34,777 nt of DNA from Bacteroidota bacterium (GCA_013285855.1 JABDGW010000029.1:343-35119), one strand, 5' to 3'. Shown: positions 7,231 to 34,067, counted from the first letter of the stretch. Made by a program: numbers and translations. Notes: generated by a model not told the origin, from the sequence alone.

Positions 7231-7236
7231 ATAATT

Positions 7237-9787: not shown

Positions 9788-9806
9788 AAATTACATTGGC
9801 CAAATA

Positions 9807-11762: not shown

Positions 11763-11763
11763 C

Positions 11764-15954: not shown

Positions 15955-15964
15955 AATTTCTTCA

Positions 15965-17005: not shown

Positions 17006-17103
17006 CTTTTTATAGATAAACCTAAGTGTTAAATTTTTAATGGTATTTCGACTGTGAAAAATGGTTAACAATAAGATTTTTAAAACTTTCTAAGTGAGTG
17101 AAT

Positions 17104-17141
17104 GTGTTTAAATTACACAATGAACAGTGTAACAATTACAC
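17104..17141 (+). promoter_or_regulatory. Tandem 15-bp palindromes, candidate operator pair upstream of the first susC
   Basis: Two 15-bp sites with the same design lie 23 bp apart centre to centre: GTGTTTAAATTACAC (17104-17118, imperfect) and GTGTAACAATTACAC (17127-17141, perfect arms GTGTAA and TTACAC around CAA). The half-site TTACAC therefore occurs at 17113-17118 and 17136-17141, with its complement at 17127-17132. They sit about 60-100 bp upstream of the predicted -7 box, suitable for a dimeric transcription factor. No such pair occurs before the second susC. The bound regulator is unknown and no candidate gene is in the window. Confidence 0.55.
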
Positions 17142-17160
17142 ATTAAAAAAATTTCTACTT

Positions 17161-17209
17161 TTTTTGGACTGCATGCAATGAATTGTTAATTTTAACTGTC
17201 CTATATTAT
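17161..17209 (+). promoter_or_regulatory. Promoter/leader block of the first susC, shared with the second susC
   Basis: The block contains TTTTTGGA, then GCATGCAATGAATT (17171-17184), TTAAT, TGTC and TATATT (17202-17207). The same words occur in the same order and nearly the same spacing before the second susC (28276-28322). TATATT with the following bases partly fits the Bacteroidota -7 consensus TAnnTTTG. The start codon lies about 30 bases downstream. Conservation of non-coding sequence between diverged paralogues supports a functional role; the exact transcription start is inferred. Confidence 0.6.
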
Positions 17210-17236
17210 TATTTTATCACCTTTTTATTATTACTT

Positions 17237-20200
17237 ATGAGACAAAAAATCGATTGCTTTTTTGTGCGGTTATGCGCACCTATGTTTTTGTTTTTGATTC
17301 TGGGCTTTTCTGCTATTGCTCAGCAACCCGTGACGGGCAAAATAACAAATAGCAAGGATGGCACGCCCATTGGCTTCGCAACTGTAACAGTTAAAGGAAC
17401 CACCGTGGCAACAGTATCTAATGCAGACGGTTCTTTCATAATTAATTTACCCGCAGGTAAAACAACACTTATCGTTTCTTCAGTTGGCTTTACTACTATC
17501 GAATCCCAGGTTACAGGAGGAGTAGCAGACATCAAGCTGGCAGAAACTACTTCTTCATTAGATGAAATTGTTGTTACAGGGTATACTGCACAAAAAAAGA
17601 AGGATATTACGGGTGCAGTAGCTGTTGTTGACGTAAAAAATTTAAAGGCCATCCCGAGCGGTAACCCCGATCAAATGTTGCAGGGGCAGGCTGCTGGCGT
17701 ACAGGTTATAACTTCCGGGCAACCCGGCGCAAACTCCCAGATAAATATACGAGGCATTACTTCCTTTGGAAATAATGATCCTTTGTACATAATTGATGGC
17801 GTGCAGGCAAGCCTTCATGACATAAACCCTGCAGACATAGAATCGATACAGGTTTTGAAAGATGCAGGATCTGCTGCTATTTATGGTGTGCAGGGTTCTA
17901 ACGGAGTTATTGTTGTAACAACAAAGAAAGGAAAGGGAGCAAAAACTTCACTTAATTATGACGGTTATGTTGGAGTACAGAAACCTATAAGTGGTAATCC
18001 TTTGCACTTGCTTGATGCTCCGGAAATGATGCAATTGGCTCAAAAAGTAGGTGATGGAACTGACCTATATGGAGATAATTATACTATACCAGACTATATA
18101 TACAGTGACCAGGTTACAGGCGTTAGGGGTACCGGAAACGCAGGAGATCCTGCTGTTGACCCTTCAAAATATTTTTTCGATCCTTCACATGCAGCAGATT
18201 ATTTTATTGCGAAAACAAATAAAACCGGTACAGACTGGTTTCACGAAGTATTCAAACCGGCTTTACAACAAAGCCATACAATTAGTGCAAGTGGGGCAAC
18301 TGATAAAAGCGCATACATGTTTTCATTAAATTACCTCGATCAACAAGGGACTGTAACGAATACCTATTTAAAAAGATACTCTGTTAGGATAAACACCATG
18401 ACGACCATAAAAAATATAATAAGGATTGGGGAAAACGCTTATGTTTTTTATAAAGATAATCCCCAGGTGCCTAACCTTTGGGAAAATAGTATAATTGCAG
18501 GAGTTTATGGTGCTTTACCAATTTTGCCGGTGCATGATATTGCCGGTAATTATGCAGGAGCTTACGATGGTCCGGGTCTTGGAAATGCGGGTAATCCCGT
18601 AGCAGGACAAGACAGGTCAGGAACAGACAAAAGAAACACATGGGATATAATTGGTAACGTATTTGCAGAGGTTGACCTGTTCAGGCATTTTACAGCACGT
18701 ACTAGTTTCGGTGGTACTGTTGATAACCAATACTATTACAATTTTGGTTTTACTCCTTACGAGTCATTTGAAAACCATAACCTGGCAAACAGCTTTACAG
18801 AAGGATCTCTGTACAGCAGTACGTGGCTTTGGACCAATACCCTGTCATACAGTAATGTCTTTGCACAAAAACATTCTTTAAAAGTTCTTGTTGGATCGGA
18901 GGCCAAGAATACTTATGCAAGAGGCGTAGAAGGTGCCAGAAATAATTATAGTCCTACCCTGGCTACTGATCCTTATTTCTGGACACTTAATAATGGTACT
19001 GCACAGATTGTTAACCAAACTTATGGTTATTATGCAGGCGGCCCGGTTGTCTCCACTTCGCTGTATTCAATTTTTGCCAGACTGGATTATTCTTTTAATA
19101 ATACATATTTACTCGGTGCTACGTTTAGAAGAGATGGCGCATCTGTACTTGCTCCGGATGTGCGTTATGGTAATTTCCCTTCTGTATCTATAGGATGGAG
19201 AATTTCTCAGTATGATTTCATGAAGAATATTGACTTTATCAGCGACCTGAAATTAAGAGGTAGTTGGGGTAAATTAGGTTCAGTTTTGAACGTTAATCCC
19301 GCCAATCCTTTTAATGCGTATGGTCAAAGCACACAAAGTTCCTTCTACGACATTAATGGTACCAGTAACTCTTCAGTGCCGGGCTATTTGCAAACCCAGG
19401 TAGGAAATTCCAAGACGAGCTGGGAAGAAGATAAAATTGTCAACATTGGTCTGGATGCGACCTTATTTAAAAATAAGTTAGATTTTACCGCTGAATATTT
19501 TGATAAGACTGTTGACGGATTACTTTTCCAATACAGCTTTCCCGCTGCCGGAATTGGATTTGCCACTTATCCGGTTGTAAATGGTGCTGATATTGAAAAT
19601 AAAGGATTTGAAATTAATGCTACTTATCATGGAACAGCTACTAAAGATTTGAAATTTGATATTGGTGTTAATTTCACTCATTATGATAATAAAGTATTGG
19701 CAGTTCCAAATCCTGGCTATTTTGACGTAGGAGCATCCCGCCAGGGCCAATTGGTTAGAAATATGCCTGGAGAACCTTTAGGATCCTTTTATGGTTATAA
19801 AGTGATAGGTATATTCCAGGATAGCAACCAGGTTAAAGGATCTGCTTTTCAGCCTGATGCTGCTCCCGGACGATTCGAATTTGCAGATATAGATGGAAAT
19901 GATACTATAAATGCAAATGACCGTACCGCTATTGGTAATCCAAATCCTGATTTTACGTATGGCTTAAATTTAGGTGTAACGTATAAAAACTGGACGTTAA
20001 GCGCCTTCTTTTATGGTTCTCAGGGTAACGATGATTATAATGAAGTTAGGTACTGGACAGATTTTTATGGAACATTTCCTGTAACAAAAAGTAAGGACGC
20101 ATTGTATAATTCCTGGACGCCAAGTAATCCAAATGCTAAAGTTCCTATACTTGAAACAAATGAAAACCAAAGTACGGCTAATGCATCAAGTTCCTACTTT

Positions 20201-20485
20201 ATAGAAAATGGATCTTTCTTTAAATGCCGGTATGTAAAATTGGCGTATGATTTTAAACCCAATTTACTAAAACATATTGGTGTGAATAGCATGACGATGT
20301 ATATACAGGCTTTGAATTTGTTTACCATTACTAACTATAGTGGCTTGGATCCGGAATTGCAATCTGCTGGTTCCTCTAATGGCGCTAACCCGGGTTTTGC
20401 AGCCAATGCTTCTTTCGGAATTGATTATGGTAACTATCCCAACAATCAAAAATCATATTTAGTAGGGGTAAGTTTAAACTTTTAA
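17237..20485 (+). CDS. SusC/RagA-family TonB-linked outer membrane transporter (first pair)
   Basis: This 1082-residue protein forms the outer membrane barrel that imports oligosaccharides captured by its SusD partner, powered by TonB. After a signal peptide ending SAIAQ comes a carboxypeptidase-regulatory-like domain (VTGKITNSKDGTPIGFATVTVKG is its start, by position 32 onward). Then follow the SSLDEIVVTGY segment and the plug domain, with QGQAAGVQV, INIRGITSFGNNDPLYIIDGV and SIQVLKDAGSAAIYG, then the long barrel ending in a C-terminal Phe (VGVSLNF). There is no N-terminal STN domain, so it is not the type that signals to an ECF sigma/anti-sigma pair. I use the ATG at 17237; an in-frame upstream start at 17183 would fall inside the promoter block. 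The susD gene follows within about 20 bases. Confidence 0.95.
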   Translation: MRQKIDCFFVRLCAPMFLFLILGFSAIAQQPVTGKITNSKDGTPIGFATVTVKGTTVATVSNADGSFIINLPAGKTTLIVSSVGFTTIESQVTGGVADIKLAETTSSLDEIVVTGYTAQKKKDITGAVAVVDVKNLKAIPSGNPDQMLQGQAAGVQVITSGQPGANSQINIRGITSFGNNDPLYIIDGVQASLHDINPADIESIQVLKDAGSAAIYGVQGSNGVIVVTTKKGKGAKTSLNYDGYVGVQKPISGNPLHLLDAPEMMQLAQKVGDGTDLYGDNYTIPDYIYSDQVTGVRGTGNAGDPAVDPSKYFFDPSHAADYFIAKTNKTGTDWFHEVFKPALQQSHTISASGATDKSAYMFSLNYLDQQGTVTNTYLKRYSVRINTMTTIKNIIRIGENAYVFYKDNPQVPNLWENSIIAGVYGALPILPVHDIAGNYAGAYDGPGLGNAGNPVAGQDRSGTDKRNTWDIIGNVFAEVDLFRHFTARTSFGGTVDNQYYYNFGFTPYESFENHNLANSFTEGSLYSSTWLWTNTLSYSNVFAQKHSLKVLVGSEAKNTYARGVEGARNNYSPTLATDPYFWTLNNGTAQIVNQTYGYYAGGPVVSTSLYSIFARLDYSFNNTYLLGATFRRDGASVLAPDVRYGNFPSVSIGWRISQYDFMKNIDFISDLKLRGSWGKLGSVLNVNPANPFNAYGQSTQSSFYDINGTSNSSVPGYLQTQVGNSKTSWEEDKIVNIGLDATLFKNKLDFTAEYFDKTVDGLLFQYSFPAAGIGFATYPVVNGADIENKGFEINATYHGTATKDLKFDIGVNFTHYDNKVLAVPNPGYFDVGASRQGQLVRNMPGEPLGSFYGYKVIGIFQDSNQVKGSAFQPDAAPGRFEFADIDGNDTINANDRTAIGNPNPDFTYGLNLGVTYKNWTLSAFFYGSQGNDDYNEVRYWTDFYGTFPVTKSKDALYNSWTPSNPNAKVPILETNENQSTANASSSYFIENGSFFKCRYVKLAYDFKPNLLKHIGVNSMTMYIQALNLFTITNYSGLDPELQSAGSSNGANPGFAANASFGIDYGNYPNNQKSYLVGVSLNF

Positions 20486-20505
20486 TAATGCTAAAAGAAA
20501 ATAAA

Positions 20506-22464
20506 ATGAAGACTATAAATTATAAAGTAATAATTGCATTTTTCTCAGCGATGGCAATAGTTACGATTATTGCCTGTAATAAAAGCTTTTTAAATAAGCC
20601 TTTGACCGGACCAGTTACCCAACAAAATTTAGCAAATAAGGCCGGCGTCGAAGGTTTATTAATTGGAGCTTATTCTTTACTTGATGGCGTAGGAGCTGCA
20701 GGCACAACCGGCGTTCCTGCCTTAATTTCCCCTGATGGTTCCGGTGGTATATGGGAAGGTTCAGCAGATGACTGGATATTTAGCAGCGTACCTGGCGGTG
20801 ATGATCACAAAGGCTCATTCCAACAAGACCAGGGAGCTTACTTTCTTCCGGTTCAGGCTTATGACGCAGATCCCTCCAGTTTATATTTAGATGATAAATG
20901 GATAATAGTATATGCTTCTGTTGCAAGATGTAATGATGTTTTGAAAACAATGGCACTGGTTACAGATGGTTCTTTATCGCCGGCAGATACTATAGAAATA
21001 AGAGCTGAAACACAATTTTTAAGAGGAGTATATCACCTCGAAGCAAAGAAAATGTGGAATAACATTCCTTATATTGACGAGTCAATAGACTTGGTTAAGA
21101 ACAACTATTTAGTGTCAAACACTACAGATACCTGGCCGATGATCGAAGCAGATTTTCAATATGCTGCAGCCCATTTACCAGAAAAGCAATCTGAAGTTGG
21201 TAGAGCAAATAGCTGGGCTGCCAAGGCGTTTCTTGCCAAGTGCTATATGTATGAAAAGAAATTTCCAGAAGCATATACTTTAATTAAGGATATAATTGCT
21301 AATGGAAAAACTTCCAAGGGAGAAAAATATGCTCTTTTACCTCACTACGGTGACAACTTTAATGCTGCATTTAAAAACAATGCAGAAGCTGTATTTTCTG
21401 CGCAGGAATCTGTATTGGATAATGCCGGCGGTCAAAACGGAAATGGAGGAGACGTACTGAATTTTCCCTATGGTGGCCCAACAACATGTTGCGGGTTTAA
21501 CCAGCCTTCTTATAGTCTTGCAAATTCATTCAAAACAGATCCTGCTACAGGATTGCCATTGTTAGATAATTTTAATGATTTCGACATTAAAAGTGACGAA
21601 GGCTTATCTACGTGGTCTTATAATCTGGATGATGATAAACATCCACAAAATAAGGATACTTTTCAGACCTACCAGGGAACTTTAGATCCTCGTATTGACT
21701 GGTCAATAGGCAGAAGAGGTATTCCTTACTTAGATTGGGGGTTACCTCCGGGACAATCATGGATCAGGGACCAGGAAAATGCAGGCCCGTATATACCTAT
21801 TAAACAGGTAGTTTCCAAAGCGCAACAGGCGTCACTTGCTGAAGCGTATGGCGGATGGGCTCCTAACCAGGCAACTGCTAATAACTATGCCTATATCCGC
21901 TTTGCCCAGGTTTTGTTGTGGGCAGCAGAATGCGCTGCACAGTCTGGCGATTTAAGTGCAGCTACTAATTATGTAAATCAAGTAAGACAAAGAAATGTTG
22001 ATCCATCAGGATGGGTTCATCAATATAATAAAAATCAATATGGGGTTCAGGATGCTTTATTGGGTTCTTCAAGCACTCCAGCGGCTAATTATAAGGTTGG
22101 TTTATACCCTGTATTTACAAGTAAGGATAATGCTTTAAAAGCTATTTATTTTGAAAATAAATTAGAAACATCTTCAGAAGGCCATCGTTTCTTTGACGTG
22201 GTAAGATGGGGCATTGCAGATGAAGAGCTAAACGCATATGTAGCACATGAAACGGGCTATAATCATAGCTTTGATCCTGCACATCCGATATTTTATGATC
22301 CATTGGGAACGCCTAAGGGAAATCTTACCAATCCGCCAAGGTCGGTTACACCTGCTGCACATTTTACAAAAGGGAAGAGCGAATATTATGCTATTCCCCA
22401 GGCGCAAATTGATGCGAGCAGGGTGAACGGAGTATCATCTTTAACGCAAAATCCAGGTTATTAA
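20506..22464 (+). CDS. SusD/RagB-family glycan-binding outer membrane lipoprotein (first pair)
   Basis: SusD proteins form the lid on the SusC barrel and bind glycan at the cell surface. The protein has a lipoprotein signal with lipobox IIAC (Cys24), the N-terminal NKSFLNKPLTGP segment, TPR-like helices (AETQFLRGVYHLEAKKMWNNIP, residues about 165-185; NSWAAKAFLAKCYMYEKKFPEAY further on) and the family hallmark EGHRFFDVVRWG near residue 565, ending in LTQNPGY. At 652 residues it is longer than many SusDs. I chose the ATG at 20506 because it is preceded by an A-rich stretch and gives a compact signal peptide; an ATG at 20488, two bases after the susC stop, would add six residues and is possible. 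A strong terminator follows 25 bases after the stop. Confidence 0.93.
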   Translation: MKTINYKVIIAFFSAMAIVTIIACNKSFLNKPLTGPVTQQNLANKAGVEGLLIGAYSLLDGVGAAGTTGVPALISPDGSGGIWEGSADDWIFSSVPGGDDHKGSFQQDQGAYFLPVQAYDADPSSLYLDDKWIIVYASVARCNDVLKTMALVTDGSLSPADTIEIRAETQFLRGVYHLEAKKMWNNIPYIDESIDLVKNNYLVSNTTDTWPMIEADFQYAAAHLPEKQSEVGRANSWAAKAFLAKCYMYEKKFPEAYTLIKDIIANGKTSKGEKYALLPHYGDNFNAAFKNNAEAVFSAQESVLDNAGGQNGNGGDVLNFPYGGPTTCCGFNQPSYSLANSFKTDPATGLPLLDNFNDFDIKSDEGLSTWSYNLDDDKHPQNKDTFQTYQGTLDPRIDWSIGRRGIPYLDWGLPPGQSWIRDQENAGPYIPIKQVVSKAQQASLAEAYGGWAPNQATANNYAYIRFAQVLLWAAECAAQSGDLSAATNYVNQVRQRNVDPSGWVHQYNKNQYGVQDALLGSSSTPAANYKVGLYPVFTSKDNALKAIYFENKLETSSEGHRFFDVVRWGIADEELNAYVAHETGYNHSFDPAHPIFYDPLGTPKGNLTNPPRSVTPAAHFTKGKSEYYAIPQAQIDASRVNGVSSLTQNPGY

Positions 22465-22489
22465 TAAATAAAATTTATTTTCATACAAT

Positions 22490-22522
22490 AAAAGGTAGAG
22501 TATCTTAGCTCTACCTTTTTTT
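22490..22522 (+). terminator. Rho-independent terminator after the first SusCD pair
   Basis: A perfect stem, AAAGGTAGAG (22491-22500) with CTCTACCTTT (22509-22518), closes an 8-base loop, and can be extended by one A-T pair. It runs directly into seven Ts (22516-22522). The next gene begins only 23 bases later on the same strand, so this looks like a partial terminator limiting expression of the downstream FG-GAP genes relative to susCD. Confidence 0.88.
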
Positions 22523-22545
22523 ATTAACTTATCTTAAATTTTACA

Positions 22546-25500
22546 GTGAATTTAAAGTTTCAGTTAGCTTGCTTACTAAGTGCATGCTTTTCAGGTTTTT
22601 TTTTGTTATCCTGTAATCAAAACGATGCTTTATTTATTAAGGTTTCCTCATCGTCTTCCAATATAAAATTTACTAATCAAATTATCGAGAATGATTCAAT
22701 TAATCCTCTCGACGTAGAGAATATGTATAATGGTGGTGGCGTCGGAATAGGAGATTTCAACAACGACGGATTGCTGGATATTTATTTTACCGGCAACATG
22801 GTATCTAATAAATTATATCTTAATAAAGGCAATTTTAAATTTGAAGATGTTACTAATGAAGCCGGTGTTGATGGTGAAGGCAAATGGTCAAGAGGAGTTG
22901 CAGTTATTGATATTAATAATGATGGATTGCCGGATATATATGTATCTGAAACCTTAAAAAAAGATCCGCAGCAACGCGCCAATCTTTTATACATCAACCA
23001 GGGAAACGATAAAGATGGTATTCCTCATTTTAAAGAAATGGCAAAAGAATATGATTTGGCAGATACAGGACATTCAACACAAACTGCATTTTTTGATTAC
23101 GATAATGATGGTGATTTAGATGCATACATTGCAACCAATGTAATTACAAAACAGATTTTTACTGATCAGTTCAGGCCAATACTTAGAAACGGCGAAAACC
23201 CAAGTACAGGTCGTCTGCTTCGAAATGATTTTGACAATGCACGGAATCATCCTGTTTTCACTGATGTTTCAAAACAAGCGGGAATACAAACAGAAGGTTA
23301 TGCTCATGCTGTCACAATATGTGATATCAATAATGATGGATGGAAAGATATATATGTTACAAACGATTTTGTTACAAACGACCTCTTATGGATAAATAAC
23401 CATGATGGAACATTTACAGATGAGCTTTCAGATTATTTCAAGCATACTTCTGCAAATTCAATGGGGAACGATATCACTGATATCAATAACGATGGCTTAC
23501 CGGATGTGATTTGCTTAGACATGAGCCCGCAGGATAATTTCCGAAAAAAAATGATGCTGAATCCCAACAGTTATCAGCACTATCTGAACAGCAATATTTA
23601 TGGATACAATTATCAATATGTAAGAAATACTTTGCAATTAAACTGCGGCAATTCAATTACAGAAAATGATTCCATATCACATCCTGTTTTCAGCGATATA
23701 GGTTTCTATGCAGGAATTTCACAAACTGATTGGAGCTGGACGCCTGTTGTAGCAGATTTTGATAATGATGGAAATCGTGATATAATTATAACCAATGGTT
23801 ATCCTAAAGATGTTACCGATCATGATTTTATTGCATTTAGAGATAAGGCAGAATTTATTGCAAGCAAACAGCAACTGATGCAGGCAATCCCTCAGGTTAA
23901 ACTGCATAATTATGCATATCGAAATAATGGCGATTTAAGTTTTAAAGATGTTACCCAAAACTGGGGTTTGCAAATGCCTTCATTTTCAAATGGGGCAGTA
24001 TATGTTGATTTGGATAATGACGGGGACCTTGATCTTGTTATAAACAATATTAATGATGAAGCATCAGTATATAAAAATACTTCACGCGAAAAAAATAAAA
24101 ACAATACACACTTTTTAAATGTAAAGTTTACAGGCAATGAAAAAAATATAAATGGCATTGGTGCATTGTCGGATATTTATTACAACAATGGCAATCATCA
24201 ATTTTGGGAAAATACGCCTTATCGCGGTTATCTTTCAACTATACAGGATGTTGCACATTTTGGATTAGATACAATTACAACAATTGATTCTGTAATCATC
24301 CGTTGGGCTGATTTTAAAAAGCAGGTTATTCGAAATGTAAAGGCAGATCAAACATTAATTGTAAATATTAAAAATGCTAATCTGCCTTATAATTTTAATA
24401 CAAATAAAATTGATTCAGCGGCTTTGTTTAACAACATTACAGATTCTGTAAATATTCATTACACACAGCAAGACAAAGATTTTATTGACTTCAATATTCA
24501 AAAATTATTGCCGCATAAGTTTTCAGAATTTGGTCCCGGCATGGCAACTGGTGATATTAATGGCGATGGATTGGATGATATAATTACAGGTGGTTCTTTT
24601 TACTATGCCGATAAAAAATTCATGCAACAAAAGAACGGCACATTCACACAAAGCAATTTACAAGTGCTGAAAGATTCACTCAGTAAAAATGCGGAAGATG
24701 AAGGCATTTTATTGTTTGATGCTGATGGTGATGGTGATCTTGATTTATATGTTTCAAGTGGCGGTTATGAAATTGATCATGATTCACCAACATACCAGGA
24801 TCGTTTTTATATAAATGATGGAAAAGGAAATTTTACTTTGGATTCAACTGCTTTGCCTCAAAACTTTACCAGTAAATTTTGCGTACGTGCGGCAGATTAT
24901 GATAAAGATGGCGATCTTGATTTGTTTGTTGCAGGAAGAGTTGATCCATGGAATTATCCCAAACCTGTTTCAAGTTTTATTTTAAGAAATGATACTAAAA
25001 ACGGCGTAATAAAATTTACTGATGTTACTAAAACCGTTGCGCCATCACTTGTAAATGTCGGCTTAACATGCGATGCTGTTTTTTCAGATTTTAATAATGA
25101 CGGTTGGCCTGATCTTATTCTTGCCGGTGAATGGATGCCGGTAACTTTCCTACAAAATAATAAAGGCATTTTTAAAGATGTAACATTAACATCAGGCATC
25201 GCTGATCAAATAGGCTGGTGGAATACAATTGCTGCAGGAGATTTTGATAATGACGGAGACATAGATTATATAATTGGCAATGCCGGTTTAAATACATTTT
25301 ATAAAGCAAGTGATAAATATCCTGTTTCAGTATATGCAAAAGATTTTAATAATGACGGTAGTTACGATGCTATAACTTCTGTTTATTTACCAGATAATAA
25401 TAAAGATTATGATATAAAAGAATTTCCTGCATCATCAAGAGATGAAATGATAAAACAAATGATACCCATGCGCAGGAAATATGAAAACTATAAGTCTTAT

Positions 25501-26139
25501 GCAACAGCTACAATGGATTCTTTGCTATCTGCAGACGATAAAAAAGATGCTGTTATTTATCATGCAAATAATCTTGCATCCTGTTATTTACAAAATGATG
25601 GAAACGGGAAATTTACTTTAAAAAGATTACCTGTGCAGGCGCAACTTTCTATGTTATGTGGAATGTCTGTTTCAGATTTTAATGGAGATGGAAATCTTGA
25701 TGTGGTTATTAATGGCAATGATTACGGAACTGAAGTTGGTACAGGAAGATATGATGCTTTAAATGGTTTAATGATGCAAGGTGATGGAAAGGGAAATTTT
25801 ATTTCATTATCAATTATGCAAAGCGGTATTTATATTCCGGGTAATGGGAAATCTTTAGTGCAATTACGCAATTATAAAAATGAATGCTTACTCGCAGCAA
25901 GTGAAAATCGTGGGCCGCTGCGTATTTTCAAGCTTAAAGAAAATGTTACCTGTATGCCTGTAAATTCAAATGATGAATACGCAATTATCAAATTAAAAAA
26001 TGGCAAAGTACGAAGAGAACAATTTTACTATGGCATGTCGTATCTTTCGCAATCAGCAAGATATCTTAATATTAATTCTTCAATAAAATCAGTGCAGATA
26101 TTCAATACAAAAGGTGAAAGCCGAACAATTAATTTTTGA
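22546..26139 (+). CDS. FG-GAP/VCBS-repeat lipoprotein with UnbV (ASPIC) domain, CRTAC1-like
   Basis: A 1197-residue lipoprotein starting at a GTG, with lipobox LLSC (Cys23); no in-frame ATG precedes its first repeat. It carries fourteen calcium-binding D-x-(D/N)-x-D-G-x-x-D loops, from DFNNDGLLD near residue 69 to DFNGDGNLD near residue 1048, predicting one or two beta-propellers. Between the seventh and eighth loops lies a UnbV/ASPIC-type domain (GYLSTIQDVAHFGLDT, then IIRWADFKKQVI). Such proteins are common beside SusCD genes in Chitinophagaceae, but their function is not established; adhesion, glycan binding and an enzymatic role have all to be considered. It follows a terminator by 23 bases and overlaps the DUF1573 gene start by one base (TGATG). 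Confidence 0.9.
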   Translation: MNLKFQLACLLSACFSGFFLLSCNQNDALFIKVSSSSSNIKFTNQIIENDSINPLDVENMYNGGGVGIGDFNNDGLLDIYFTGNMVSNKLYLNKGNFKFEDVTNEAGVDGEGKWSRGVAVIDINNDGLPDIYVSETLKKDPQQRANLLYINQGNDKDGIPHFKEMAKEYDLADTGHSTQTAFFDYDNDGDLDAYIATNVITKQIFTDQFRPILRNGENPSTGRLLRNDFDNARNHPVFTDVSKQAGIQTEGYAHAVTICDINNDGWKDIYVTNDFVTNDLLWINNHDGTFTDELSDYFKHTSANSMGNDITDINNDGLPDVICLDMSPQDNFRKKMMLNPNSYQHYLNSNIYGYNYQYVRNTLQLNCGNSITENDSISHPVFSDIGFYAGISQTDWSWTPVVADFDNDGNRDIIITNGYPKDVTDHDFIAFRDKAEFIASKQQLMQAIPQVKLHNYAYRNNGDLSFKDVTQNWGLQMPSFSNGAVYVDLDNDGDLDLVINNINDEASVYKNTSREKNKNNTHFLNVKFTGNEKNINGIGALSDIYYNNGNHQFWENTPYRGYLSTIQDVAHFGLDTITTIDSVIIRWADFKKQVIRNVKADQTLIVNIKNANLPYNFNTNKIDSAALFNNITDSVNIHYTQQDKDFIDFNIQKLLPHKFSEFGPGMATGDINGDGLDDIITGGSFYYADKKFMQQKNGTFTQSNLQVLKDSLSKNAEDEGILLFDADGDGDLDLYVSSGGYEIDHDSPTYQDRFYINDGKGNFTLDSTALPQNFTSKFCVRAADYDKDGDLDLFVAGRVDPWNYPKPVSSFILRNDTKNGVIKFTDVTKTVAPSLVNVGLTCDAVFSDFNNDGWPDLILAGEWMPVTFLQNNKGIFKDVTLTSGIADQIGWWNTIAAGDFDNDGDIDYIIGNAGLNTFYKASDKYPVSVYAKDFNNDGSYDAITSVYLPDNNKDYDIKEFPASSRDEMIKQMIPMRRKYENYKSYATATMDSLLSADDKKDAVIYHANNLASCYLQNDGNGKFTLKRLPVQAQLSMLCGMSVSDFNGDGNLDVVINGNDYGTEVGTGRYDALNGLMMQGDGKGNFISLSIMQSGIYIPGNGKSLVQLRNYKNECLLAASENRGPLRIFKLKENVTCMPVNSNDEYAIIKLKNGKVRREQFYYGMSYLSQSARYLNINSSIKSVQIFNTKGESRTINF

Positions 26140-26600
26140 TGATGAATTATAAAAACCTGATAACTTTTGTTGTGTGTTTAGTTGTGATCGCTTGTAATAG
26201 TAATAAAAATCCATACGCAAATAATTTAGGAATAAACCCCGCATTAGCAGCACAAATTGATACTGCTCATTATACATTAATTAAATGGCAGGATACAATT
26301 ATAAATTTTGGAACAATAAAAGAAGGCGATTCTGTTCTTTTAAAATATAAATTTTATAATGCTGGAAAAACCCCTTTGTTTGTATTGCAAACAAGACCTG
26401 CCTGCGGATGCACAGTAACTGATTTTCCTAAGGACCCGATCATGCCTGGAAAATCTGGTGTTATTACTGGAATTTTCAGAAGCATTTATCATCCGGGAAA
26501 CACTTATAAAACTATACAGGTTGTAACAAATACCCGCAACAAATCGAGCCGCTTGCTGGTATTTAAAGGAATGGTTGAGCCTTCTAAGAAAAGTAATTAA
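26139..26600 (+). CDS. DUF1573 lipoprotein
   Basis: This 153-residue protein has a lipobox VIAC (Cys19) and then one DUF1573 domain: INFGTIKEGDSVLLKYKF, the NAGKTPLFVLQTRPACGCT segment with the conserved CGC motif, and a final strand VFKGMVEP. DUF1573 is an Ig-like (ASH/PapD-like) domain frequent in Bacteroidota surface and periplasmic proteins, with no agreed biochemical role. I use the ATG at 26139, which shares one base with the previous stop; an ATG at 26142 and an in-frame TTG at 26136 are alternatives. It is squeezed between two FG-GAP genes with almost no spacing, so the three are probably one functional set. Confidence 0.88.
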   Translation: MMNYKNLITFVVCLVVIACNSNKNPYANNLGINPALAAQIDTAHYTLIKWQDTIINFGTIKEGDSVLLKYKFYNAGKTPLFVLQTRPACGCTVTDFPKDPIMPGKSGVITGIFRSIYHPGNTYKTIQVVTNTRNKSSRLLVFKGMVEPSKKSN

Positions 26601-26601
26601 A

Positions 26602-28131
26602 ATGAAATTTTTTTATTCATTATTTTTTGCCACAATATTTATTTTATTTTTTTCCTGTAAAGATTATACAAAAAATAAAACGCACCAGGCCGTATCTGAT
26701 GCAAGCATTAAGGCTGGGAAAAAATTAGCGGCTATATATTGCGCATCCTGCCATCAATTACCTGATCCTTCATTGCTTGATTCAAAAACATGGGAAACTG
26801 GCGTTTTGCCGGCAATGGGCCCTAATCTTGGAATTTTTGCTTATGGTTTTAGCCAATATCCTGCATCTGCTAAAGACCCACATATCGGCAGAGCATTTTA
26901 TCCTTCGCAACCTGTTGTATCGTTTGTTCAGTGGCAAAATATTATAGATTATTATTCGACTACATCTCCCGATTCATTATATCAGCATAAAAAATATTTA
27001 CAAATTAAAACGGATGATAAATTATTTCAGCCGGTGCAATCTTCATTTCAATATGAAAATCCTGCAACTACATTTGTAAAATTTCAACCCGGTAATCAAA
27101 TAATAATCTGCGATGCCTTTACAAAAAAATTATATGCTATCAATAATAATTTGCATGTAATAGACTCAATTAATACAAATGGTTCGGTAACTGATATAAT
27201 TACAGATTCAGGCAGATTGATTCTTTGCAACACAGGTATTCTTAATCCTAACAACGGAAAATTTGGTTCTGTTGAAACAGTTTCTTTTAATGACAAATCA
27301 AAGATTGATACTTTATTTAAAGATCTGATGCGGCCTGTTCAAATAAACCATGTTGATTTAAATAATGATGGCAAAAAAGATTTTATTATATGTGAGTTTG
27401 GCAATTTAAAAGGCGCTTTATCGTGGCTTGAAAATAAAGGCAATAATCAATATCAATATCATATTATCCGCCCCGTGCCCGGTGCAATAAGAACTTATAT
27501 TGATGATTATAATCATGATGGCTTGCCGGATATTTGGGCACTTTTTGCACAGGGTAATGAAGGAATTTTTCTTTTCACCAATAAAGGTAATGGAGTATTT
27601 GATACAAAAGAAGTTTTGCAATTTCCGCCATCTTACGGCTCATCATCTTTTGAGCTCGATGATTTTAATGAAGACGGATTTCCTGATATAGTTTATACAT
27701 GCGGCGATAATGCTGACTTCTCACAAATATTAAAACCGTATCACGGCGTGTATATTTTTTTAAATAATGGTAAGAATAATTTCACTCAAAAATATTTTTA
27801 TCCAATCCATGGTTGCTATAAAGCTATTGCAAAAGATTTTGATGGCGATGGTGATTTGGATATTGCAACCATTTCCTTTTTTGCTGACTATGCGCATAAG
27901 CCCGAAGAAGGTTTTGTGTATTTAAAGAATGAAGGTGATTTTAAATTTCAACCTTACAGTTTTGATGCAGCCAAATCAGGAAGGTGGCTTACAATGGATG
28001 CTGCGGATTTTGATGGCGATGGAAAAATTGATTTGGTTCTGGGCAATTTTTCTGTAGTACCGATGACATTTAAAACAGCAGTTGACTGGACAAAGCAACC
28101 GCCATTTTTAATTTTGAAAAATATTCAATAA
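26602..28131 (+). CDS. Lipoprotein with N-terminal cytochrome c motif and FG-GAP repeats
   Basis: This 509-residue lipoprotein (lipobox FFSC, Cys19) has a single c-type heme motif, CASCH (Cys47 to His51), in a class-I-like context (AGKKLAAIYCASCHQLPDP). A WETGVLPAMGPNLG stretch follows in which Met could be the distal heme ligand. The rest is a beta-propeller-like domain with five D-x-(D/N)-x-D-G-x-x-D loops, from DLNNDGKKD to DFDGDGKID. Heme would be attached outside the cytoplasm. The ATG at 26602 is preferred, one base after the DUF1573 stop; an upstream TTG at 26575 would put charged residues ahead of the signal. A cytochrome/FG-GAP fusion suggests electron transfer coupled to binding at the envelope, but function is unknown. 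Confidence 0.85.
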   Translation: MKFFYSLFFATIFILFFSCKDYTKNKTHQAVSDASIKAGKKLAAIYCASCHQLPDPSLLDSKTWETGVLPAMGPNLGIFAYGFSQYPASAKDPHIGRAFYPSQPVVSFVQWQNIIDYYSTTSPDSLYQHKKYLQIKTDDKLFQPVQSSFQYENPATTFVKFQPGNQIIICDAFTKKLYAINNNLHVIDSINTNGSVTDIITDSGRLILCNTGILNPNNGKFGSVETVSFNDKSKIDTLFKDLMRPVQINHVDLNNDGKKDFIICEFGNLKGALSWLENKGNNQYQYHIIRPVPGAIRTYIDDYNHDGLPDIWALFAQGNEGIFLFTNKGNGVFDTKEVLQFPPSYGSSSFELDDFNEDGFPDIVYTCGDNADFSQILKPYHGVYIFLNNGKNNFTQKYFYPIHGCYKAIAKDFDGDGDLDIATISFFADYAHKPEEGFVYLKNEGDFKFQPYSFDAAKSGRWLTMDAADFDGDGKIDLVLGNFSVVPMTFKTAVDWTKQPPFLILKNIQ

Positions 28132-28137
28132 TCATTA

Positions 28138-28163
28138 CCTGCATACAATAAAAATATTGCAGG
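28138..28163 (+). terminator. Possible hairpin at the end of the FG-GAP gene set
   Basis: CCTGC (28138-28142) pairs with GCAGG (28159-28163) and, after a four-base bulge, AATA (28147-28150) pairs with TATT (28155-28158) around an AAAA loop. It begins six bases after the stop codon, which is a suitable location. No T-run follows directly; T-rich sequence begins only about 35-45 bases later. It may be a weak terminator or a 3'-end stabilising structure. Confidence 0.35.
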
Positions 28164-28275
28164 CCGCTTATGTAAATAGATTTGTTCTTTCTTCCAGCTT
28201 TTTATTTTTTTTTATTGATTCTGATGGATTTGCAAGCACATTTCTAAAGTGACTAAAAGTTTATTACAGTAAAAA

Positions 28276-28322
28276 TTTTTGGAAGCATGCAATGAATTAT
28301 TAATCCTGGTTGTCTATATTTA
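28276..28322 (+). promoter_or_regulatory. Promoter/leader block of the second susC, shared with the first susC
   Basis: TTTTTGGA (28276-28283), GCATGCAATGAATT (28285-28298), TTAAT, TGTC and TATATTTA (28315-28322) repeat the block found before the first susC. TATATTTA matches seven of eight positions of the Bacteroidota -7 box TAnnTTTG. The susC ATG lies 29 bases downstream. Further upstream a shorter match, TTTCTAAAGTGACT (28243-28256), resembles TTTCTAAGTGAGTG at 17087-17100. The tandem palindromes of the first leader are missing here. The remainder of the gap from 28164 to 28242 is T-rich with nothing I can identify. Confidence 0.62.
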
Positions 28323-28351
28323 ACCTAATTTTTCAATAATTAACATTTCTT

Positions 28352-31300
28352 ATGAGTAAAAACGATTGCAAACTATGTGGGTTAATTCTATTATTATTAC
28401 TTACAAGTTTAGGAAGTTTCGCACAACAAATTGTAACCGGAATGGTTAGAGGTGCAAATGACAGTTTGCCCGTAGTTGCGGCAACTGTAACTGTAAAAGG
28501 TACCAATATAGCTACTGTTAGCGATATTAAAGGTAATTTTACTATTACCGTTCCTTCTGGCAAACATCTTTTGGTTGTATCCTCAGTAGGATTTACCGAT
28601 GTTGAAGTTGATCCTTCTTCCGGAAATTTAAATGTTTTGCTTTCCGAAAGTACTACTTCACTAAATGATGTTGTAGTAGTTGGTTATGGTACGCAAAAGA
28701 AAAGCGTAGTTACCGGCGCTATTTCAAGCGTAAAGGCCAAAGATCTCGAAAATGTTCCTTCCAGTGGCAGAATTGAACAAGCACTTCAAGGCAGAGTATC
28801 TGGTGTTACTATCGCACAAAATGCAGGGCAGCCAGGTTCAAATGCTACTATAAGAGTAAGAGGTATTACAACATTTGATGATGCCGGTAATAACCCACTT
28901 TGGGTTATAGATGGTATTGTAGTGGATGCAGGAGGTATCGGTTATATTAATCAATCAGATATTGAATCCATTGAAGTTTTAAAAGATGCAACCTCTGCAG
29001 CTATTTACGGAACAAGAGCAGCATCGGGTGTAATTTTAGTAACCACCAAAAAAGGCCGCGCCGGAAAAATATCTTTTAGTTATAATGGTTTATATGGTAC
29101 ATCAGCCCCGGCAAAAAAATTAGATTTATTGAATGCTACCGAGTATGCTACTTTAATGAACGAACGTTCCGTTGCAGGTGGAGGAGATATTGTTTACTCT
29201 GATCCTGCAAGCTTAGGTAACGGAACTGACTGGCAGGCACAGATTTTTAATGACGATGCCCGCCGCTCAGACAATGAATTTAGTATTAGCGGTGGAGGTG
29301 ATAAATCAACATTTTATCTATCTTTTGGTTTGCTGAATCAGCAAGGTATAGTGTCAACTGATATCTCCCAGTATGACAGAAAAAACATAAGGCTCAATTC
29401 CACACATAAAATAAACAAGTTTTTTACTTTTGGTGAAACTGTTGGATATGCTCATGCCAAAAGCATAGGCTTAGGTAATACGAACAGCGAGTATGGTGGC
29501 CCTTTAAGTTCAGCTATTAATCTTGACCCAATAACTCCTCTTATTGAAACAGATTCTGCTGTTTTAAAGCAAGCGCCTTATCTTAACAATGCGGTGATTT
29601 TAGCCCCCAACGGTTACCCTTACGGTATTTCAACAATTGTAGGTCAGGAAATGAGCAACCCTAAAGCTTATGAACAGACGAGATTAGGCAATTATAACTG
29701 GTCTGATGATTTTGTAGGAAATGCTTATTTGGAAATAAAACCAACGCAAAACATTACAATCAGATCATCAATTGGTGGTAAACTGGCATATTGGGGCAGC
29801 CAGGGCTTTACGCCCGTTTATTATTTGAGCCCGACAATTAATGTAACACAAAATAACCTTTCAAGAAATTCAAATAAAGTGTTTTACTGGAATATTGAAA
29901 ACACAATACAATATAGTAAAATCATAGATGATCATAACTTTAGCATATTGTTAGGCCAGGGAGCTTATGTTGACAATATTGGGGGTAGCTCTACTGTTAC
30001 TGTTTTTAATTTGCCGGTAAATAATTACCAGGATGCTTCTTTTAATTTTCCATCAACTCAAGCTAACAGAACCGACGGAGTATCTGATTTTACAGAACAT
30101 AAAATATCTTCTTTATTTGGCCGCGTTAATTACAATTATAAAGAGAAATATTTATTTACAGGTATTATACGCCGTGATGGTTCAACCAGGTTTGGCTCAA
30201 ATAATAAATTCGGAAATTTTCCATCTGCTTCTGTTGGCTGGGTAGCCTCCAGAGAAGATTTCTGGCCGACGAACAAAGTTGTTAATACATTTAAGTTAAG
30301 AGGAGGGTATGGTAAGGTTGGAAATGACGGTGGTATACCAGATTTTAGTTACACACCGCTTGTAGTGGGTGGATATAATTATACCATAGGAAATGGTGGT
30401 ACTATTCTAACAGGATATGCTCCTAAAACGCTGGCTAATCCTGATTTGCATTGGGAGGAAACTACGCAGGCAGATGTAGGATTTGATGCGCAGGTACTTA
30501 CCAATTTTACCCTTACAGTTGATGTGTATAATAAGAAAACAAGCGGTATTCTTAGACCTGTTCCAATCCCTTTATATGTTGGCGTTAGCGATCAGCCTGC
30601 TGCAAATATTGCCGACATGGAAAATCGTGGTCTTGAAATAGAATTAGGATATCACAAGAGAATTGGCCAGGTTGATTTGGGTATAAACGGAAATGTATCC
30701 TTCCTGAAAAATGAAGTAACCTACGTAAACTCTGACGCCGATTTTATAGATGGAGGTGCAGGTTTTCAATCTATGGGTACCGTAACCCGCATACAGGTTG
30801 GACAATCATTTAATTCGTTCTACGGTTATAAAACTATGGGTATATTTCAAACCCAGGCCGATGTGAATGCATATGTAAATAAAGACGGCGGATTAATTCA
30901 GCCGAATGCAAAGCCGGGAGATTTCCGGTGGGCAGACCTTAACGGCGATGGCACAATTTCAGAAGATGACAAAACGTTTTTGGGAAGTAATATACCTAAA
31001 GAAACTTTTGGTCTAACTGTTACCGCCGCTTATAAAGGTTTTGATGTGATGATTTTTGGCCAGGGTGCTGCGGGCAATAAAATTTTCCAGGGTTTACGAA
31101 GATTAGATATTGCGAATGCGAATTATCAGACAAAAGCTTTAGATCGCTGGGCCGGCCCAGGAACTTCTAATGATTTTCCGAGATTAACAAGTAGCGATGA
31201 TAATGGTAATTTTCAAAAAATGTCTGATTTCTATCTTGAATCAGGAGATTATTTGCGCCTTAAACTACTTCAATTGGGATATACATTTAACAACAACTTT

Positions 31301-31474
31301 TTATCGAGAATAGGTTGTACAAAGCTGCGTTTATACGTTACAGGTGAAAATCTGGTTACTCTTACAAATTATACAGGATATGACCCAGAAATTGGTGGCG
31401 GTGTGTTTGGTATAGATAAAGGGTATTATCCGCAGGCACGTTCTTTTCTTGTAGGAGCACAAATCCAGTTCTAA
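28352..31474 (+). CDS. SusC/RagA-family TonB-linked outer membrane transporter (second pair)
   Basis: The 1040-residue protein has a signal peptide ending GSFAQ, a carboxypeptidase-regulatory-like domain (VKGTNIATVSDIKGNFTITV, residues about 50-70), the SLNDVVVVGYGTQKK segment and a plug with QALQGRVSGV, IRVRGITTF, PLWVIDGIVV and SIEVLKDATSAAIYGTRAASG. The barrel ends VGAQIQF with terminal Phe. There is no STN signalling domain. It is clearly homologous to the first SusC but diverged through most of its length, so the two probably handle different glycans. Its partner susD starts 28 bases downstream. The GH16 gene nearby suggests a beta-glucan oligosaccharide as cargo, by inference. Confidence 0.95.
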   Translation: MSKNDCKLCGLILLLLLTSLGSFAQQIVTGMVRGANDSLPVVAATVTVKGTNIATVSDIKGNFTITVPSGKHLLVVSSVGFTDVEVDPSSGNLNVLLSESTTSLNDVVVVGYGTQKKSVVTGAISSVKAKDLENVPSSGRIEQALQGRVSGVTIAQNAGQPGSNATIRVRGITTFDDAGNNPLWVIDGIVVDAGGIGYINQSDIESIEVLKDATSAAIYGTRAASGVILVTTKKGRAGKISFSYNGLYGTSAPAKKLDLLNATEYATLMNERSVAGGGDIVYSDPASLGNGTDWQAQIFNDDARRSDNEFSISGGGDKSTFYLSFGLLNQQGIVSTDISQYDRKNIRLNSTHKINKFFTFGETVGYAHAKSIGLGNTNSEYGGPLSSAINLDPITPLIETDSAVLKQAPYLNNAVILAPNGYPYGISTIVGQEMSNPKAYEQTRLGNYNWSDDFVGNAYLEIKPTQNITIRSSIGGKLAYWGSQGFTPVYYLSPTINVTQNNLSRNSNKVFYWNIENTIQYSKIIDDHNFSILLGQGAYVDNIGGSSTVTVFNLPVNNYQDASFNFPSTQANRTDGVSDFTEHKISSLFGRVNYNYKEKYLFTGIIRRDGSTRFGSNNKFGNFPSASVGWVASREDFWPTNKVVNTFKLRGGYGKVGNDGGIPDFSYTPLVVGGYNYTIGNGGTILTGYAPKTLANPDLHWEETTQADVGFDAQVLTNFTLTVDVYNKKTSGILRPVPIPLYVGVSDQPAANIADMENRGLEIELGYHKRIGQVDLGINGNVSFLKNEVTYVNSDADFIDGGAGFQSMGTVTRIQVGQSFNSFYGYKTMGIFQTQADVNAYVNKDGGLIQPNAKPGDFRWADLNGDGTISEDDKTFLGSNIPKETFGLTVTAAYKGFDVMIFGQGAAGNKIFQGLRRLDIANANYQTKALDRWAGPGTSNDFPRLTSSDDNGNFQKMSDFYLESGDYLRLKLLQLGYTFNNNFLSRIGCTKLRLYVTGENLVTLTNYTGYDPEIGGGVFGIDKGYYPQARSFLVGAQIQF

Positions 31475-31502: not shown

Positions 31503-33020
31503 ATGAAAAAAGCACATTCCATTAAATTAATTTCTCTGGCGGCAATAGTTTTATTGTTTGCCGCCTGTAGTAAAAGCTTTGTGGATATTGACCCTCAAGG
31601 TGTATTTGCTGCGGATACTTATTACAAAGATCAACAGCAGGCGTTTACAGGCCTGGTTGCTACATACGATATTATGCGTAAGAATTCAGGTGGTTTCGAA
31701 AATATGATCACATTTATGAATGCCGGGTCTGATGATAATTACGCTGGTGGTGGTGGTGAATCAGATGGTGTTGGTATACAAAGTTTCTCTAATCATACTG
31801 TAAATGCCGAAACTATGCCTGGCAGTTATTGGGGAGATCATTACCAGGGTATTTTTCGTGCAAATACTTTATTGCAAAAGCTTCCCAATACTCAAATGGA
31901 TGAGAATCTAAAAGCAAGATTTGTTGGTGAAGCGAAAGCATTACGTGCTATATACTATTTTAATCTTGTAAGAATGTTCAAAAACATTCCACTGATTTTA
32001 GAACCTGTGGAAACAAGCGATATTTATAATATAAAACAAACTAGTTCTGATTCCATCTATAATCAGATTGAAAAGGATCTAACTGAAGCAATTCCTGCAT
32101 TACCGGCAACCGTTCCTCTTCCAACTGAAGGTGGCCGTATTACAAAAGTAGCAGCAGAAGCAATGCTTGGTAAAGTTTATATTTATGATAATAAGCCTCA
32201 GCTTGCCGTACCATTACTTGCAGACGTAAATGGTTCTACACCTGGCCAGCCAAATGCTTATGGCAATTCATTGCTTACAAATTTTAAGGACCTATGGGTT
32301 TTCACTAATAAATTTAATAGCGAATCTATTCTTGAAGTAACACACTCTAACCAGGTTTTCTTAGGCGATTGGAGTCTGTGGGGAAGCAGCAGTGATGAAA
32401 GCAATACAGTTGACCAAATGGTGGGTCCGCGTAGCTATACAAGGTTGAGCCCTGATGCACCGGATATTTATCCTGCAGGCTGGAGCTTTAATGTATTTAC
32501 ACAGGATTTTTATGATGCTATCAAAAACGACCCAAGGTTTAGTGCCACGGTTTTTGATGCGAAAGCATTGGAAGATGCAGGACTGATAACTTATGTATAT
32601 GGGTACCAGAATACTGGTTATTTTCTGAATAAATTTATCCCGATGCCTTCTGATAAAGCAACTGTAGGCAGTGCTGAATTAAACTTCCAGGGCGATAGTT
32701 ATGTTATTCGTTTAGCGGATACTTACTTGCTGGAAGCTGAAGCCTTAGGCGCATCAGGCCCAAGAGCGCAAGCACTGTTAGATGCAGTTAGAGCAAGAGT
32801 TGGTTTACCTTCTGTTCCTGTATCAATGAATGCAATTAAGAATGAACGCAGGTTTGAATTAGCTGGTGAGGGTCATCGCTTTTTTGATCTTGTAAGATGG
32901 GGTGATGCTGCTACTAAATTAGCTAACAGAGGATTTACCGCAGGCAAAAGCGAAATTCTTCCAATACCGGCTTCTGAATTAAAGGGTACTTTATTAGTTC
33001 AAAATCCTGGTTACGAATAG
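31503..33020 (+). CDS. SusD/RagB-family glycan-binding outer membrane lipoprotein (second pair)
   Basis: A 505-residue SusD of ordinary length. The lipobox is FAAC (Cys22), followed by SKSFVDIDPQG. Family features are the FVGEAKALRAIYYFNLVRMF helix pair (residues about 140-160), TKVAAEAMLGKVYIY, IRLADTYLLEAEAL, and the hallmark NERRFELAGEGHRFFDLVRWG near residue 460, ending LLVQNPGYE. It would form the lid of the SusC barrel encoded just upstream and bind the glycan at the cell surface. The next gene, a putative surface glycan-binding lipoprotein, starts 28 bases later. Confidence 0.95.
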   Translation: MKKAHSIKLISLAAIVLLFAACSKSFVDIDPQGVFAADTYYKDQQQAFTGLVATYDIMRKNSGGFENMITFMNAGSDDNYAGGGGESDGVGIQSFSNHTVNAETMPGSYWGDHYQGIFRANTLLQKLPNTQMDENLKARFVGEAKALRAIYYFNLVRMFKNIPLILEPVETSDIYNIKQTSSDSIYNQIEKDLTEAIPALPATVPLPTEGGRITKVAAEAMLGKVYIYDNKPQLAVPLLADVNGSTPGQPNAYGNSLLTNFKDLWVFTNKFNSESILEVTHSNQVFLGDWSLWGSSSDESNTVDQMVGPRSYTRLSPDAPDIYPAGWSFNVFTQDFYDAIKNDPRFSATVFDAKALEDAGLITYVYGYQNTGYFLNKFIPMPSDKATVGSAELNFQGDSYVIRLADTYLLEAEALGASGPRAQALLDAVRARVGLPSVPVSMNAIKNERRFELAGEGHRFFDLVRWGDAATKLANRGFTAGKSEILPIPASELKGTLLVQNPGYE

Positions 33021-33047
33021 TAGATATTTAAACTTAAAAATTAGAAT

Positions 33048-33974
33048 ATGAAAAATATAATTTATAATGTAATTCTTGTTTTCAGCTTATTGTTCTTCTT
33101 CAACAGCTGCGATAAATCAAATTATACTTTGGGCGATTTAACACCACCTGCTAACGTTGTGGTTACGGCTGAAGTAGTAGGTAAGGATGCTGATCATCCA
33201 AATGGTGATGGCTCTGGTAACGTTATGATAAGTGTAACATCAGATTATGCACTCTCTTACAAAATACAATATGATAGTAGTTCAGATTTAGCTTACGTGC
33301 CTTCAGGTACTGTTACGCATAAATACACTGATCCCGGGTTACACACCTATACTATTACAGCATATGCTTATGGTAAAGGTGCCTCTTCTACTTCTGCTAC
33401 TACACAAGTAACCGTACAAAGTGATTTTGCACCAGACCCTGCTATTGTAACTGCTTTAACTAATGACGATTCTAAAACCTGGGTTGTTAATAAAGATATT
33501 CCCGGTCATTTTGGTGTTGGTCCATGGGATGCCACATCTTTTACACCTGCCTGGTGGGCTGCAGGAATAAATGAAAAAGTAGCATGTTGCAATTGTTTCT
33601 ATACAGCAACATTTACTTTTTCAAAAGCAGCCGATGGCAGTTATTCTTTAGCAGTAGCAACTCCAGATGGTGCATTTACCAAAACTGGTGCCTTAACAAC
33701 ATTGCCGGGCATACCAGCAACGGGTGATGAAGCCTGTTATAATTATGCAGGAGGTACTTCATCTTTTAAATTTGCACCTGCAAGTTCAGGAGTTGATGCT
33801 TCAGCATCTACACAAGTAAGTGTTTTATTATCCGGTGTTAATACATATATAGGATATGGCGCAACGCTTAAAGAATATGAAATATTAAGTATTGACGATA
33901 ACAATTTGTATTTGCGTGTACAAGGAACGGAAACTGGAAATGCCTGGTATATTAAATTAACACCCAAGCAATAA
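33048..33974 (+). CDS. Putative surface glycan-binding lipoprotein (PKD-like domain, SusE/F position)
   Basis: This 308-residue lipoprotein (lipobox NSC, Cys21) has an N-terminal Ig/PKD-like domain (about residues 35-125, ending HTYTITAYAYGKG and TTQVTVQSD). A second domain from about residue 135 begins with DDSKTWVVNKDIPGHFGVGP and is rich in aromatic residues (WWAAG), with a CCNC cluster. It lies directly after susC-susD and before a GH16 gene, the usual place of surface glycan-binding proteins in beta-glucan utilisation loci. It has no catalytic motif I recognise. The exposed tryptophans in the second domain fit glycan binding, but the specificity is inferred. A strong terminator follows 28 bases after the stop. 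Confidence 0.78.
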   Translation: MKNIIYNVILVFSLLFFFNSCDKSNYTLGDLTPPANVVVTAEVVGKDADHPNGDGSGNVMISVTSDYALSYKIQYDSSSDLAYVPSGTVTHKYTDPGLHTYTITAYAYGKGASSTSATTQVTVQSDFAPDPAIVTALTNDDSKTWVVNKDIPGHFGVGPWDATSFTPAWWAAGINEKVACCNCFYTATFTFSKAADGSYSLAVATPDGAFTKTGALTTLPGIPATGDEACYNYAGGTSSFKFAPASSGVDASASTQVSVLLSGVNTYIGYGATLKEYEILSIDDNNLYLRVQGTETGNAWYIKLTPKQ

Positions 33975-34002
33975 GCAATTAATAAAATTGAATTGGTATT
34001 AT

Positions 34003-34040
34003 TAAGCAGCACTTCTCACAACATGTGCTGCTTATTTTTT
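34003..34040 (+). terminator. Rho-independent terminator after the second SusCD unit
   Basis: A perfect 10-bp stem, TAAGCAGCAC (34003-34012) with GTGCTGCTTA (34025-34034), encloses a 12-base loop and is followed by six Ts (34035-34040). The GH16 gene starts 27 bases later on the same strand. The arrangement mirrors the terminator after the first SusCD pair. Confidence 0.88.
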
Positions 34041-34067
34041 ATATACTGAATTATATATTAAAGATTA

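Follow-up and report, generated by a model that had tools for sequence, protein, structure and literature searches.

In Bacteroidota, SusCD systems number in the tens to hundreds, and FopS in Bacteroides gave a first RNA answer to how such systems stay off when they are not needed. In B. thetaiotaomicron, the multicopy FopS small RNAs (sRNAs) bind near the start codon of susC and block its translation (PMC11697453). The primary-sigma promoter of Bacteroidota has TTTG at -33 and, after ~19 nt, TAnnTTTG at -7 (PMC7366714, PMC9723704). A third described system, the regulon of the Crp-family protein Cur/BT4338 of Bacteroides, has the consensus TATGTTnTAnAACATA (PMC3878776, PMC6989115). Here we analyse 34,777 nt of a Bacteroidota bacterium (GCA_013285855.1, JABDGW010000029.1:343-35119; hereafter the window), in which two susC genes, susC1 (17237..20485) and susC2 (28352..31474), are preceded by a similar block of DNA. 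The source is a metagenome-assembled genome (MAG) of 3.15 Mb that is 67% complete, and the host is a soil bacterium. We think it rather probable that the block is a captured susC1 front end, the leader of which pairs with a multicopy sRNA-like RNA. Genes and elements are given on the plus strand; palindromes and the junction between loci have no strand.

The block shared by two susC genes

Both copies contain, in equal order, the five elements listed in a preliminary description of this DNA, namely TTTTTGGA, GCATGCAATGAATT, TTAAT, TGTC and TATATT. In local alignments of 180-bp start regions, the two copies match with a score of 59. The next-best match among 1119 other gene starts, which represent ~1.45 Mb of the MAG and form our own-genome comparison set, scores 34, and the copies are each other's sole match. 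Shuffled controls have a mean of 21.5 (standard deviation 3.3, maximum 46, n=2000). The shared block is real and non-random. Although its named elements end about 30 bases before the ATG, as had been described, the similarity itself extends across the leader and into the first codons. The alignment spans 17161-17257 in copy 1 and 28276-28369 in copy 2, starting at TTTTTGGA and passing through CTTATGAG and AAAAxCGATTGC inside the coding region. The SusC proteins are indeed diverged, with 32% identity over 1104 aligned columns.

In its layout the block resembles a sigma-A-type core promoter of Bacteroidota followed by a leader, and from this resemblance we infer the start sites and the sigma factor. 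In copy 1, a T-tract ending in a -33-like TTTGG (17160..17168, with TTTTTGGA at 17161-17168) is followed by the promoter spacer GCATGCAATGAATT (17171..17184), the -7-like box TAATTTTA (17187..17194), TGTC (17197-17200) and a leader that ends in CTTATG (17200..17239), with a predicted start at ~17199. Copy 2, aligned with SusC1 promoters, contains the -33-like TTTTTGGA (28276..28283), GCATGCAATGAATT (28285..28298), the -7-like box TAATCCTG (28301..28308) and TGTC (28311-28314), with a predicted start at ~28313. As in the described promoter, the two boxes stand at the appropriate distance, ~50 nt upstream of the ATG: TTTGG is separated from the -7 box by 20 nt in copy 1 and 19 nt in copy 2, and the T-tract plus G is conserved 19-22 nt upstream of the box in most SusC1 orthologues. 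Unlike the described TAnnTTTG, the box of copy 1 ends in A rather than G (one mismatch), and copy 2 has TAATCCTG (two mismatches). A further difference is the spacer, which is nearly invariant in the genus. Across the genome, TAnnTTTG occurs in 201 of the 1119 upstream regions, compared with 128-154 in controls, and is clustered 10-29 nt upstream of the ATG. A sigma-70 consensus promoter was rejected, as the scan did not rise above shuffles. A structured leader (fold z about 0.2-0.3, no signal) and a known riboswitch (no Rfam match in the region) were rejected as well.

Upstream of SusC1 orthologues, the alignment reads, from 5' to 3', a tandem TGTGTA-N5-TACACA, a T-tract ending in TTTG(G), TGCAATGAATTGT, TAATTTTAGC, [CT]GTC, an AT-rich leader and CTTATGAG..AAAAATCGATTGC. 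The 17-nt TGCAATGAATTGTTAAT shows almost no variation among members of the genus, even though most of the proteins share only about half of their residues. This conservation is far above what a promoter spacer needs, and [CT]GTC lies at near-constant spacing in SusC1 promoters. Together with the CGT-type promoter motif of extracytoplasmic function (ECF) sigma factors in F. psychrophilum (PMC9723704), such conservation would suit a block that is mainly the site of a dedicated transcription factor or ECF sigma factor co-regulating both SusCs, for example with TGCAATG-N16-TGTC as its -35 and -10. We regard this as unlikely. Outside the genus, TGCAATG has disappeared or shifted position and the spacer has changed, whereas the T-tract/TTTG and TAATTTTA stay, and homology that reaches into codons argues for descent rather than for convergent operators. 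No ECF or FecR gene lies at the locus and neither SusC1 nor SusC2 has an STN domain, so that ECF control was rejected; the preliminary description had already noted the missing STN domains and considered classic transducer/ECF control not the obvious explanation. The GCATGC palindrome, previously taken for a regulator-binding site, is not conserved and reads GCATGC, GGATGC, GTATGC, AGATGC or GCTGC in orthologues. TATATT is common to copies 1 and 2 and not conserved in orthologues.

The block had also been expected to mark a wider regulon of SusCD loci, which the scan of the 67%-complete genome does not support: exact matches to GCATGCAATGAATT occur only at the two window sites. At up to three mismatches, GCATGCAATGAATTnTTAAT is found at nine places in the genome. 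Two of these are exact, both in the window, and none of the other seven lies upstream of a susC start. The matches to GCATGCAATGAATT with two or three mismatches fall in coding or coding-edge DNA and are put down to chance, and the block motif was not found at the other full susC genes examined in this genome. Among 150 relatives, the motif with one mismatch precedes SusC1 orthologues in G002 and G007 and has two further, unrelated sites. In the genus genomes, the core motif occurs only upstream of SusC1 and in copy 2, besides chance-level three-mismatch matches. Seven of eight genus genomes have the same front end upstream of their SusC1 orthologues, and of other genes only SusC2 shares it. 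The leader gives the same picture. The signature CTTATGAGN4-12CGATTGC hardly occurs elsewhere: of its 13 matches in the 150 genomes, ten belong to SusC1 orthologues, one to copy 2 and two to unrelated places. Judged from this distribution, the block is an inherited promoter-leader module and not the operator of a broad SusCD regulon. Of the proposed common control, the sharing of transcription-start signals is supported; GCATGC as the palindrome bound by a regulator is not. A common regulator of both genes more likely acts on the mRNA leader.

The way in which susC2 came to have this block is suggested by its relatives. SusC2-SusD2 and the genes downstream have their closest relatives in other genera, and the nearest SusC2 homologues (47-59% identical) all belong to these. 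There, SusC2 relatives adjoin a Reg_prop/Y_Y_Y/GerE regulator (G023, G036) or an ECF sigma factor with FecR (G014). The block was not found at SusC2 homologues of other genera. In the genus genomes examined, no close homologue of the Reg_prop/Y_Y_Y/GerE regulator was found, the best being partial matches of 22-41%. Where the conserved cluster gives way to the acquired SusCD locus (28132..28351), relatives have instead a convergent methyltransferase-like gene 3' of the FG-GAP gene.

The two copies lie on one contig, 11 kb apart and in the same direction, as would also be the case if the resident susC1 start had recently been copied nearby, by duplication or gene conversion, and the block meant nothing for regulation. 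We consider such an origin very improbable. Copy 2 aligns to the SusC1 promoters of other species with scores of 52-72 (nearest G004 and G006), a range that includes its score of 59 against the resident copy 1, and identity is concentrated in functional positions. In agreement with the preliminary description, the block is therefore not a fresh duplication; since copy 2 is no nearer to the resident copy, the capture either happened long ago or had another species as its source.

The sequences show the two blocks to be copies of one ancestral front end, which we assign to the genus-conserved SusC1. It comprises a predicted core promoter (T-tract/TTTGG, a spacer of 19-20 nt and either TAATTTTA or TAATCCTG), ~38 nt of leader and the opening 6-7 codons. 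By promoter capture, a SusCD locus of predicted beta-glucan type, which has its own regulators in other genera, would now lie downstream of a SusC1 front end. Both mRNAs would therefore start from similar promoters, and each has CGATTGC within its first seven codons. The tandem TGTGTA-N5-TACACA further upstream, a putative regulator site, would have remained with SusC1 only.

A susC-start element and a multicopy sRNA-like family

In susC1 mRNA the predicted pairing site for the sRNA seed is CGATTGC (17251..17257; core duplex -12.0 kcal/mol), and in susC2 mRNA it is AACGATTGC (28361..28369; duplex -20.5 kcal/mol). Sequences like AACGATTGC recur at susC starts of Chitinophagaceae. Within 30 nt upstream of the ATG, ACGATT is present in 14% of 37 susC start regions, none of which was used to find the element, compared with 0.4% of 242 other genes. 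In the own genome, CGATTGC lies near only 4 of the 1119 starts: those of the two susC genes of the window, that of an open frame containing the SusC of contig 40, and one other. An intergenic site on another contig (L361:11300-11340, G000:C8) forms a perfect inverted repeat, ACATAAGCAATCG...CGATTGCTTATGT, which has an RNA z-score of -4.0 and includes the susC-start element CGATTGCTTATG. Families resembling repetitive extragenic palindromic (REP) repeats are also present in intergenic DNA.

A search for the complement of the element in intergenic DNA led to TTTTTTTTCATATGGCAAGCAATCGTTAGAGGCCGTTCCGTTTCCACGGAAGGGCTTTTTTC on contig 30 (L387:12490-12550, G000:C30), in which an unpaired segment precedes an intrinsic terminator. 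This RNA-like sequence is present in 2-5 copies per genus genome. Its 13-mer GCAAGCAATCGTT occurs ~140 times in 91 genomes, almost only within Chitinophagaceae, compared with 4 matches of the reversed control. A pattern that allows any middle part of 10-20 nt matches 144 of 246 genomes of the family, and ~140 of the 157 pattern places listed have one identical 30-nt word. In 25 aligned copies the 22-nt TTTCATATGGCAAGCAATCGTT is invariant and the terminator stem varies with compensatory changes. Many copies look 3'-untranslated-region (3'-UTR) derived, because 35 of 59 stand behind a co-directional open frame, which often encodes a lipoprotein of 52-71 amino acids (MKKLL..AACN..DTTKK). Other copies are free-standing or in arrays, spaced by ~360-560 bp in some genomes. 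Further loci are L430, L421 and L403-L471. No Rfam family reaches threshold for the sequence, and our literature search found no description of an RNA family composed of TTTCATATGGCAAGCAATCGTT and a terminator. We propose that TTTCATATGGCAAGCAATCGTT with its intrinsic terminator represents a previously undescribed multicopy sRNA-like family; its expression as RNA is predicted from this architecture.

Complementarity to this family is significantly enriched at susC starts, judged against other genes, shuffled seeds and susD. With the core seed GGCAAGCAAUCGUUAGA, the independent susC starts average -9.6 kcal/mol, compared with -7.1 kcal/mol for genes of the own genome and -6.7 kcal/mol for genes of the family. 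Values of -12 kcal/mol or lower are reached by 30% of the 37 independent susC and by 4% of other genes. Among 1119 genes, the full seed places susC2 5th and susC1 118th; the core seed places them 21st and 43rd, respectively.

A simpler source of this signal would be a preference in translation initiation or in signal-peptide codons that places AACGATTGC near susC starts, the match to the repeated RNA being coincidental. The element is translated in several susC, and Bacteroidota have special start contexts without Shine-Dalgarno sequences (PMC6847099). We find this explanation doubtful. The element is fixed while the start codon shifts around it, and none of 500 shuffled seeds matches the observed susC bias. 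This bias is limited to windows at the start codon and absent at susD, where 3% of the genes in that position reach -12 kcal/mol.

We favour a leader element that would pair with the multicopy sRNA-like RNA (seed GCAAGCAATCGTT, then terminator), which in turn would restrain translation of susC mRNA as FopS does in Bacteroides. The predicted docking site in the front end is a possible common switch for transporter production. Several observations weigh against a captured front end with a pairing leader. Copy 2 has a poorly matching -7 box (TAATCCTG), the -33 motif is undetectable genome-wide in the 1119 upstream regions, and the near-invariance of the spacer in the genus exceeds the needs of a core promoter alone. 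With the MAG 67% complete, the missing part could hide a regulator or a third copy of the block. Pairing of susC1 is only moderate, and the mean shift over all 16 susC of the own genome is non-significant (p = 0.14), with 4 of the 16 reaching -12 kcal/mol.

The seed was not found in G014 and Chitinophaga. There, susC starts seem to bear TTACACGTT/TTCACGTT before the ATG (G014 susC starts L174, L188 and L206; Chitinophaga SusC1 homologues L294, L298 and L306), possibly a seed-swapped counterpart. A test of seed co-variation in G014, where the RNA was not found, was suggestive and non-significant (p = 0.08), and a comparison of SusC1-homologue starts between named groups gave no clean separation by family.

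An upstream palindrome and the neighbouring genes

The likely conserved transcriptional operator of SusC1, as predicted from orthologous promoters, lies outside the shared block. It is a tandem palindrome of the TGTGTA-N5-TACACA type, with a distal TGTGTTTAAATTACACA (17103..17119) and a proximal AGTGTAACAATTACACA (17126..17142), the latter centred near -65 of the predicted start. The tandem pair is conserved upstream of SusC1 orthologues in several genera. In 12 SusC1 promoters, 60-65 bp (in one case 50) separate the proximal palindrome from the -7 box, and a more distant clade of lake MAGs retains perfect palindromes where the core promoter has diverged. Copy 2 lacks the palindrome, so susC1 and susC2 probably differ in activation.

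In intergenic DNA of the genus, TGTGTA-N5-TACACA is found upstream of SusC1, of an alpha-amylase with a type IX secretion system (T9SS) tail and of a 4-alpha-glucanotransferase with starch-binding domains. Further sites precede a protein that matches the MGS domain weakly (below threshold) and a 143-amino-acid secreted protein after obgE. Together, the sites look like a small carbon regulon. Another lies upstream of a small gene that follows the ATP synthase genes. The genus-wide sites include those at L112-L141 and L310-L339. In G002 (L318:1478), a TGTGTA-type site stands between a divergent LacI-family-like regulator gene and a susC. As in the Cur/BT4338 regulon, a palindrome here precedes promoters of carbohydrate genes (alpha-amylase, 4-alpha-glucanotransferase, the weak-MGS protein and SusC1). 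Unlike TATGTTnTAnAACATA, however, TGTGTA-N5-TACACA is one base longer between its half-sites, and a Cur-type operator was rejected on this spacing.

SusC1 (Plug and CarbopepD_reg_2 domains) has orthologues of ~50% identity in many Chitinophagaceae. It is followed by susD1 (20488..22464) and by genes for an FG-GAP/UnbV protein, a DUF1573 protein and an FG-GAP protein (22546..28131). The two FG-GAP/UnbV-type proteins and the DUF1573 protein are kept with SusC1-SusD1 in most of the genus. The whole cluster is conserved there, mostly adjoining miaA, with gene gains and losses. Relative to this arrangement, ~16 kb are inserted between miaA and susC1 in the window (1514-17005), with genes for apiosidase-like, polysaccharide deacetylase, GH2, GH3, DUF2961, KDPG aldolase, mandelate-racemase-like, MFS and SMP-30 proteins. 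Downstream of susC2, positions 31503..34775 encode SusD2, a 308-amino-acid protein without Pfam match and a Calx-beta protein, the C-terminal end of which is cut by the window and GH16-like, a label read from the sequence and not a Pfam match. The sugar specificity of this locus is likewise a prediction.

Comparison with FopS

The sRNA-like family resembles FopS with RbpB in architecture. Both are multicopy, in both an intrinsic terminator comes after a single-stranded 5' segment, and some copies derive, or here appear to derive, from 3' UTRs. Both also have a seed complementary to susC translation starts, which here is a computational enrichment that is non-significant over all susC of the own genome. 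By sequence and covariance the family is not recognised as FopS, no Rfam family reaching its threshold. It is spread across Chitinophagaceae, and about half of the collected copies stand behind small open frames, often of one lipoprotein family.

We give an even chance to the wider proposal that Chitinophagaceae possess an undescribed sRNA family, unrelated in sequence to FopS, with an invariant seed antisense to the susC-start element, and that horizontally moved glycan loci join its control by capturing a resident susC promoter-leader, as SusC2 would have done. The window would then be a concrete case of a glycan locus giving up its own regulators and taking over a resident susC front end. 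If a nearly invariant RNA indeed has FopS-like targets, RNA control of susC translation either arose more than once or is ancient and seed-swapped.

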